33,722 nt of DNA, from IMG/VR virus record IMGVR_UViG_3300042987_002388, positions 1 through 33,722 of that record; one strand, given 5' to 3'. Position 1 is the first letter of the stretch. The number at the start of each line of letters is the position of its first letter. Under the pieces are notes generated by a model. The model saw nothing but the letters and a program-made list of their open reading frames with translations. It did not search any database and was not told the DNA's origin. The position numbers and the translations under genes are program-made. Positions 29,073 to 32,304 of the stretch are shown piece after piece. This DNA comes from a virus.

Positions 29073-30242
29073 GTGTTCATTGATAACGATTTTCCAAAAA
29101 TCTTAGGTGCCGAACTCTATCGGCCCCATCCTGCTTACATTGCCGAGATGGCGGTTGAGCCGGTTGTTGTTCATGATTTCACTCGCCAACCAGGCCAAAC
29201 TGTTCAGTTAGACCGCTATAAGTTCTGGGGTACCCCTGGCACCAAGGACAGCCGTGAGCGTATTGCTGATCAGACAATCGGTACAGCTAACAGCCGTAAC
29301 ATCACCAAAGAAAAAGTTCTGGTGGTGCTGAAGGAGTACACTGGCCCTGCCGATCCGGGCGATCCGACTCAGCCCAGCACATTCAAGATTGCTCGCGAAA
29401 CTCTGGTTACTGCCCAGCGCCTGCTGCTGGACACTGGGAACCTCAATATGTTCCACCAGTCGATTAGTAGCCTGACTCTGCTGGACGACTACCGCCGGTG
29501 GCGCGACCGTGTCTTTATCGACGAACTTGCCAAAGCTGAAGCCAACGGTGCCGCTTCCACAACTCAAGGTGGTTACTACTTCCCTGGTGCCAAAATCAAG
29601 GACGCCTCTGGTCGTATCGCCTACACTGCTACTGAATACGGCAATGAAGTCCAACAGTTCCAGGTGCGTACTGACCTGCTGACTGTTGTTAAGGATCTGC
29701 GCAAGCGTAACGTCCCCACCTTTGGTGATGGTCTGTATCGTTGCATCTGCGATCCTACTTTCATGATGCATCTGCGTCGTGATCCTGACTTCCGTGAGAT
29801 CGCTCGTTACGCTGGTACTCCAGGCCAAGGCATGTACATGGGTAATCCCATGCTGCCTAATAACGCCAGCTTCTTCCAAGGTCCTCAGGCAGGTCAAGCT
29901 TACTTCCAGGCTGGTGAACCGGTGATGCCTACTGGCGTCCAGTTTGAAGGCGTGAAGTTCTTTGAGTCGACCAACTTCCCGACCAAGAACATCAATGCTA
30001 CCTTTAACCTGGGTGGTGGTGATACCTATGCTTCCCGTGAAGTTGCTCAGGGCTACTTCTTTGGTCCTCAGGCAATCGGCGTTGGCATCGGTGGTCCCAA
30101 TGCTCAAGTCCTCATCAACAACAACGACGATTTCAGCCGTTTTATCATCCTGATTTGGCAACTTTACGCTGGTTTTGAAATCCTGAATAAGGATTTTGTT
30201 ACCACTGCGTATAGCTTCGTTGCCGACGACGGTACCGTCTGA
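29073..30242 (+). CDS. major capsid protein
   Basis: A 389-residue protein in the MCP position, starting with GTG after GGAGG. N-terminal helices and an extended arm (residues 1-130, LYRPHPAYIAEMAVEPVVVH ...) are followed by a DLRKRNVPTFGDGLYRCICD segment and ARYAGTPGQGMYMGNPMLPN. That order resembles the N4 gp56/HK97-fold capsid family, where a helix with x-R-K-x-N-x-P-x-FG precedes a strand. Codons are strongly biased to C-ending and CTG forms, as in very highly expressed genes. No catalytic motif, as expected. Confidence 0.85.
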   Translation: MFIDNDFPKILGAELYRPHPAYIAEMAVEPVVVHDFTRQPGQTVQLDRYKFWGTPGTKDSRERIADQTIGTANSRNITKEKVLVVLKEYTGPADPGDPTQPSTFKIARETLVTAQRLLLDTGNLNMFHQSISSLTLLDDYRRWRDRVFIDELAKAEANGAASTTQGGYYFPGAKIKDASGRIAYTATEYGNEVQQFQVRTDLLTVVKDLRKRNVPTFGDGLYRCICDPTFMMHLRRDPDFREIARYAGTPGQGMYMGNPMLPNNASFFQGPQAGQAYFQAGEPVMPTGVQFEGVKFFESTNFPTKNINATFNLGGGDTYASREVAQGYFFGPQAIGVGIGGPNAQVLINNNDDFSRFIILIWQLYAGFEILNKDFVTTAYSFVADDGTV

Positions 30243-31116: not shown

Positions 31117-31527
31117 ATGCTTTATCAGCACAAAAAGACAGGCGCACGCGTCAAAGTTGTTAGTGAGTGGGATAACGGCGAATGGTTCATGGTCGAAGAT
31201 CAGGACGGTCGTCTTTACACTGCTTACAAACATGAACTCACTCCAGATGAAGCAGCGACCAAAAAGGTACAAACGCTTCAAGTTAAAGATAAAGCAGCAA
31301 AGGAAGAGCCTCGCACTTTTCCTCCTGAAACACGCTTGAACATCAACACAGCCACCCCTCAGATGATCGCGGATCATATTAAGGGAATTGGCCTGAAAAC
31401 TGCCCGAGAAATCAAAGACCTTCAGATGTCTCTATCGGGTGAGAAGTTTAATAACTTGGAGCAGCTAAGACAAATCAAGCGCGTAGACTGGGAATCTGTT
31501 CTTGCTGCAGATTTGATCAGGGTTTAA
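31117..31527 (+). CDS. SH3-like plus helix-hairpin-helix protein
   Basis: A 136-residue protein. Residues 1-45 (KKTGARVKVVSEWDNGEWFM, then VEDQDGRLYTAYKHEL) form a small beta-barrel. Residues 72-136 carry the ComEA-type HhH signature: RLNINTATPQMIADHIKGIG, then LKTAREI, and a second hairpin with NNLEQLRQIKRVDWES. HhH domains bind DNA or bridge proteins without sequence preference. Position after the head genes suggests a head or connector accessory protein, or a late DNA-binding protein. A terminator follows. Confidence 0.8.
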   Translation: MLYQHKKTGARVKVVSEWDNGEWFMVEDQDGRLYTAYKHELTPDEAATKKVQTLQVKDKAAKEEPRTFPPETRLNINTATPQMIADHIKGIGLKTAREIKDLQMSLSGEKFNNLEQLRQIKRVDWESVLAADLIRV

Positions 31528-31543
31528 TCTAAAGTGCATGACG

Positions 31544-31571
31544 CCCCTGGAACCCCAGGGGTTTTTATTTT
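31544..31571 (+). terminator. intrinsic terminator, rightward
   Basis: CCCCTGG, loop AACC, CCAGGGG (31544-31561) followed by TTTTTATTTT. It closes the transcription unit that contains the MCP and HhH genes, 17 bases after the HhH stop. Confidence 0.88.
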
Positions 31572-31596: not shown

Positions 31597-32304
31597 ATGG
31601 CAGGTATTACATATTTAGGTCAAGTTGGTTCTACCGGTGTTTCCACTGGCCCACATAAACATGTCTATGTTAAAGATCTTGCTACAAATCAATACATAAA
31701 TCCAGCGACTTTACGTTCCGTACTTGCAGGTGTACGCATTGGTCAAAATAGAGTTCCTGCATTACTAAAAGACAAAGAAGGCCGTTATAACTTCAACCCA
31801 AATGCAGGAATTGCAGTTACCTCCAGTTACGGTCCTCGCTCTGCACCTACCAGTGGTGCAAGTACATTCCACAGAGGAGAGGATTGGGCGCTACCTGAAG
31901 GTACTCCTGTTTATTTTGAAGGCGCTGGTACTTATGTACCAAAAAGTAATCAAGGTGGTTATGGCAATCTAGCAACTTTTAAAACACCAGATAACAAATA
32001 TGAAATTGGTTTTGGTCACATGAAATCATTGGGGCAGCCAGCAGCAATTGCTGCTTCTCCACAATCTGCACCTAGCACTTCGTCTGATTCAAATGAGAAA
32101 GCTGTGATGAATTTACTTCAAGAATTATTTACTACAAAGAAAGAAGATAAACAACCAACGTTGATAGAAGGATTAGTTTCTTCAGCTATTTCCAGGGGAC
32201 TCTCAACACCTCGCCCTTCTTCTTTTCTTTCCAGGTATGCAGAGTTGCTCGACTCTCCTTACGAAGATGTCATCCTTAACCCTTCCATGTTTGAAACCGT
32301 TTGA
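31597..32304 (+). CDS. M23-type peptidase with circularly permuted motif order
   Basis: A 235-residue protein with both halves of an M23 (LytM/lysostaphin) metallopeptidase, in reversed order. The usual C-terminal end GSTGVSTGPHKHVYVKD comes first (residues 11-27, His20 and His22), with YINPATL after it. The usual N-terminal part SSYGPRSAP ... HRGEDWALPEGTPVYFEGAG (residues 76-110, zinc residues His92 and Asp96) comes next, then GGYGNLATF and GFGHMKS (His141). A Ser/Thr/Pro linker and a polar helical tail follow. Probably a virion-associated peptidoglycan hydrolase. The order matches a circular permutation of the fold. Confidence 0.85.
   Translation: MAGITYLGQVGSTGVSTGPHKHVYVKDLATNQYINPATLRSVLAGVRIGQNRVPALLKDKEGRYNFNPNAGIAVTSSYGPRSAPTSGASTFHRGEDWALPEGTPVYFEGAGTYVPKSNQGGYGNLATFKTPDNKYEIGFGHMKSLGQPAAIAASPQSAPSTSSDSNEKAVMNLLQELFTTKKEDKQPTLIEGLVSSAISRGLSTPRPSSFLSRYAELLDSPYEDVILNPSMFETV

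Follow-up and report, generated by a model that had tools for sequence, protein, structure and literature searches.

A circularly permuted M23 peptidase domain shared by S-EIV1-like phages

M23 enzymes have been much studied in cell division and also as antibacterials. The family (PF01551) includes LytM, lysostaphin, MepM, ShyA and NMB0315, and the linear order HxxxD, then a second catalytic His, then HxH is expected of its members. In LytM the roles of His210, Asp214 and His293 as zinc ligands and of His260 and His291 as catalytic residues have been described (PMC4594094). M23 domains also occur in structural proteins of T4-like cyanophages, and Synechococcus phage S-EIV1 (KJ410740) encodes a protein annotated as 'peptidase M23 family' (AHV82231.1), the annotation being silent on any permutation. 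Circular permutation is already known in another superfamily of cell-wall hydrolases, NlpC/P60 (YaeF, LRAT-like), which thus offers a natural parallel, although these are cysteine peptidases whose fold is unrelated to that of M23 (PMC6403190). We found no description of a circularly permuted M23 domain in the open-access literature, most subscription papers lying outside the search, and a 2022 review of the M23 family (PMC9662197) does not use the term for circular permutation.

The domain is encoded by gene P0001 of the virus record IMGVR_UViG_3300042987_002388 (IMG/VR), and "the window" refers to the whole stretch of 33,722 bases that was analysed. The gene and its parts are as follows.

31543-31562, plus strand: intrinsic-terminator-like hairpin, just 5' of the P0001 start codon
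31597-32304, plus strand: permuted M23 gene P0001, 235 aa
31612-31713, plus strand: classical C-terminal M23 segment, now N-terminal (residues 6-39; includes GSTGVSTGPHKH; classical HMM positions 92-124, Pfam positions 68-96)
31654-31662, plus strand: H20-K-H22, counterparts by profile position of LytM His291 (catalytic) and His293 (zinc ligand)
31717-31797, plus strand: linker, approximately residues 41-67, which joins the classical C- and N-terminal ends and appears in the doubled-HMM alignment as an insert separating the profile copies
31798-32031, plus strand: classical N-terminal M23 segment (residues 68-145; classical HMM positions 3-79)
31870-31884, plus strand: H92-RGE-D96, counterparts of the LytM zinc ligands His210 and Asp214
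32017-32019, plus strand: H141, counterpart of the LytM catalytic His260
32053-32301, plus strand: C-terminal tail (residues 153-235), variable and mostly of low model confidence

In the translation of P0001 the motifs run GSTGVSTGP-H20-K-H22, then H92-RGE-D96, then GFG-H141-M, and the end of the M23 domain (residues 6-39) stands ahead of its beginning (residues 68-145). A sequence-only reading of this DNA had proposed that the closing M23 signature precedes HRGED and GFGHM, and this order was borne out both by the translation and by profile comparison. The Pfam M23 profile matched residues 91-145 at positions 2-55 of 96; the whole protein scored 36.2 bits, above the curated cut-off of 28.7, while the best single stretch (26.3 bits) fell below it. 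When the first 45 residues were searched alone, the sole Pfam match was to M23 positions 68-96 of 96 (E 0.033), and they also matched MepM at positions 381-410. A phmmer search of the PDB gave crossed segments on several M23 enzymes; on 3slu, residues 58-147 correspond to 213-300 and residues 5-39 to 309-341. We also constructed a classical M23 HMM of 132 positions from 11 phage classical M23 domains, together with a doubled copy. On the single HMM, P0001 aligned as two crossed pieces, residues 68-145 at positions 3-79 (54.2 bits) and residues 6-39 at positions 92-124 (18.3 bits). An alignment that allows for permutation had been suggested by way of swapping the protein halves; run with the doubled profile instead, it gave one continuous domain across the junction (hmm 92-211, residues 6-145, 66.4 bits, iE 1.1e-18). 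Classical sequences were confined to one copy of the doubled HMM; as these controls are the training set of the HMM, only their failure to cross is informative and not their high scores.

Measured against PF01551, P0001 has the HxxxD zinc motif (H92/D96), the second catalytic His (H141) and the HxH motif (H20/H22), and both halves match the profile. The expected linear order is absent, being HxH - HxxxD - H instead, and because the segment order fails PF01551 we class P0001 as a permuted M23 variant rather than a regular member. It further differs from the described enzymes in the linker that joins the former ends and in the absence of approximately 12 profile positions (80-91) at the cut, which marks the site where the chain opened. 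P0001 is thus confirmed as an M23 domain with permuted segment order.

Whether such an order could be an artefact, arising from a chance N-terminal match, a frameshift, a wrong start or an assembly join, deserves consideration, since the N-terminal piece is short and by itself gives a weak Pfam match (the E of 0.033 given above). On the classical HMM, however, this piece scored 23.2 bits, the best shuffle reached 8.0, and none of 2000 shuffles attained its score, which disposes of the concern that the N-terminal STGPHxH is a chance match. The terminator-like hairpin right before the start makes an upstream extension unlikely, and the Met at the start position is kept in nearly all homologues. 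The same order recurs in the isolate S-EIV1 and in 126 of 130 loci, and H20 is invariant. The artefact reading, to which we assign a negligible probability, is already refuted by the homologues.

Homologous loci were collected from three scans of viral contigs, and 130 of them, S-EIV1 included, were checked systematically. The search for homologues with the same order, as had been advised, returned the permuted order in 126 (84 with HxH and 42 with HxD), many of which are near-identical and hence not independent cases. Three of the other four (L136, L138 and L139) have another domain replacing M23, and the fourth, L142, is an unrelated classical M23. L142 had been retrieved with the S-EIV1 query and was rejected, its classical M23 lying in an unrelated long protein. 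The S-EIV1 protein shares the permutation, the genomic slot and similar neighbours with P0001; it differs in having HLD for HxH and is 38% identical over residues 1-141. The permutation is a lineage trait of S-EIV1-like phages. In one phage (L036, 5787-6953) a GDSL/SGNH-like domain (GDSIAVGYGG...DAVHP; weak match) is N-terminal to the permuted M23 in one open reading frame.

Among 47 representatives, H20, H92, D96 and H141 are invariant (47/47), and at position 22 there are 28 with H and 19 with D. The earlier statement that all zinc-ligand residues are present thus holds for the window and its subgroup, which have H22, and does not extend to the S-EIV1 subgroup, in which the third ligand is Asp. 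This change from His to Asp (HLD) is found in the whole S-EIV1-type subgroup (L043, L098-L135) and in two tape-measure domains (L044, L095). Asp as the third ligand in 19 of 47 representatives could be taken to mean that the M23 fold has been kept in a non-hydrolase, a structural or binding protein comparable to the degenerate LytM factors. We regard this as improbable, given that the window's subgroup keeps the five active-site residues intact, that four of them are invariant everywhere, and that the same or a nearby slot is occupied by other cell-wall hydrolase domains. The doubled-profile alignment, the invariance of H20, H92, D96 and H141 and a confident single-domain model support the original view that the order of P0001 is a reordering and not decay.

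The permuted domain is not confined to S-EIV1-like phages. Tape-measure or tail proteins of Acinetobacter (Vieuvirus) and Moraxella phages contain an internal domain that shares both the permuted order and the cut point; with the doubled HMM it gave 85.4 and 75.6 bits. These domains differ from P0001 in lying inside a protein of approximately 1430-1700 aa, in having HLD and in their shorter linker. The domain was found also within Acinetobacter genomes: among the 80 loci listed in a pattern-biased scan of bacterial genomes, 71 were classical and five permuted, all five from Acinetobacter, and the remaining four, missed by the motif pattern, were classical by eye. The suggestion that the permutation may be a lineage trait of cyanophages was right for S-EIV1-like phages and too narrow with respect to the Moraxellaceae tape-measure proteins, and it fails for the T4-like cyanophages (S-PM2, Syn1, ACG-2014f), which, like the other phage M23 domains inspected, have the classical order. 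The T4-like proteins were rejected as same-order relatives on that account. In a tree of the two halves a branch kept all 35 permuted rows to the same side, but its support was weak (70/87) and the branches were long; the result is compatible with, rather than proof of, a single origin of permuted M23.

AlphaFold2 modelled the catalytic part of full-length P0001 with confidence and the C-terminal third without it. For residues 1-152 with 47 homologues the model had a pLDDT of 95.3 and a pTM of 0.89, and in it the swapped halves appear to fold as one domain. The new N-terminus had been placed, if the fold closes, at the loop before the HxH strand; more precisely, the cut lies within the hairpin that links the GHM and GxVG strands, with a short strand (residues 4-11) preceding the TG loop. 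In a VIA comparison of the catalytic-domain model, the eight best structural matches were all M23/LytM domains, at modest scores (Z 5.3-6.2, below 8). These matches cover only part of the chain, from model residues ~29-42 to 152, as expected of an order-bound aligner and a permuted protein. Foldseek against the PDB gave no match under E 0.001 for either the full or the domain model, which was likewise expected from an order-bound search and is not evidence against the permutation; in BFVD there was a single match under 0.001, a 1191-aa fragment. It is also conceivable that each protomer lends its N-terminal HxH strand to the fold of a neighbour, the enzyme then being active only as an oligomer, for a closed monomer and a swapped oligomer would look alike from sequence alone. 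We consider such a domain swap very unlikely, as the single-chain model is confident with the N-terminal strands included, and as the tape-measure proteins hold both pieces close together within one long chain.

The surroundings of P0001 are conserved in most relatives, and the neighbours that lie in the window are the following.

29073-30242, plus strand: major capsid protein (MCP; phrog_1357), head-module context, syntenic
31117-31527, plus strand: helix-hairpin-helix (HHH) protein, syntenic neighbour; most relatives show 79-95% identity
32344-32805, plus strand: phrog_29158 protein (g32344), syntenic neighbour; most relatives show 82-99% identity

Among relatives whose sequence extends far enough, the prevailing gene order is TerL, portal, MCP, g30277, HHH protein, M23, g32344 and g32805. 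The M23 gene accordingly lies within a structural module, between the MCP and HHH genes and g32344, as would be looked for in a virion hydrolase. Its product is just 28-68% identical to that of the window in these relatives, a much greater divergence than that of the neighbouring proteins. L129, L134 and L140 are examples of deeper-branching contigs in which the M23 gene comes after g32344, and on the deep branches an SLT or lysozyme-like gene adjoining M23 has C-terminal tail sequence in common with the M23 protein. A second lysin gene, with a phage tail lysozyme or SLT domain, is located near M23 in L043 (14350-15006), L129 (7405-7995), L134 (7321-7998) and L140 (1991-2551). In S-EIV1 a gene for a phage tail lysozyme (PF18013, E 2.2e-36) is found two genes past g32344, and its C-terminal tail shows a weak likeness to the M23 tail (E 0.33). 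The window stops within g32805, and the second lysin slot falls outside it. Within the C-terminal tail of P0001, Y214 is conserved as part of an FLxxY-like motif.

The M23 slot itself holds a different domain (GYHPxGMAIDVRD...GHDTHVHLAL) in L136 (3427-4113), L138 (5233-5916) and L139 (7626-8312). This domain is M15/VanY-like by motif, the family match being weak (Extensin-like_C, E 0.06-0.35), and it sits on the S-EIV1 form of the C-terminal tail in all three contigs, for L136 as judged by reading. In some phages HNH-endonuclease-like genes are found on the opposite strand directly beside the M23 gene, either upstream or downstream, with minus-strand starts at 3212 in L005, 3883 in L010, 9856 in both L012 and L065, 6940 and 8377 in L069, and 3916 in L058. 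Homing by these genes could partly account for exchange in the M23 slot.

P0001 might alternatively serve as an endolysin at release instead of a virion lysin at entry, as M23 enzymes serve both roles (PMC9662197) and several of the PHROG matches bear the label "endolysin". Its gene nevertheless sits within the conserved head module, and a lysozyme gene is annotated separately in S-EIV1, approximately 9 kb downstream, so that we think a role in release unlikely. The explanation that we favour, and hold to be fairly probable, is that P0001 is a circularly permuted, virion-associated M23 peptidoglycan endopeptidase; its zinc binding, its activity and its place on the virion are what we infer, the last of these from the gene neighbourhood and the shared tail. 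The chain of the M23/LytM fold would have been permuted, its new ends falling within the hairpin that connects the catalytic-His strand with the GxVG strand, and its old ends being joined through a linker of approximately 27 residues. Folding would unite H92, D96 and H22 as zinc ligands, and H20 and H141 may activate water by analogy with LytM. Mounted on the virion via its C-terminal tail, the protein could then open the wall at entry. Since its nearest relatives are MepM, ShyA and NMB0315, it is probably a DD-endopeptidase acting on D-Ala-mDAP cross-links.

More broadly, we put forward tentatively, at less than even confidence, that there is a natural clade of permuted M23 domains, possibly of single origin, comprising S-EIV1-like cyanophages and Moraxellaceae tape-measure proteins, some of its members having an unusual His/Asp/Asp metal site. 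In the cyanophages a common C-terminal tail would carry any of several lysin heads that can replace one another, the permuted M23 being one of these, and the second slot would supply a glycosidase as its partner. A natural permutation of M23 reveals where the fold tolerates new ends, and the HxH and HxD subgroups constitute a natural test of its metal site. The exchange of cell-wall enzymes in one slot, on a shared tail, makes the mounting and swapping of entry enzymes by these phages testable. Profile tools detect just half of these proteins because their halves are swapped.

A further observation concerns the capsid gene of S-EIV1. The counterpart of the window's MCP is an open frame there (86% over 389 aa, L043 9481-10629, plus strand), and this homologue (L043 9406-10632, equivalent to KJ410740 60784-62010) is unannotated as such, the antisense AHV82227 and the partial AHV82228 being annotated in its place.
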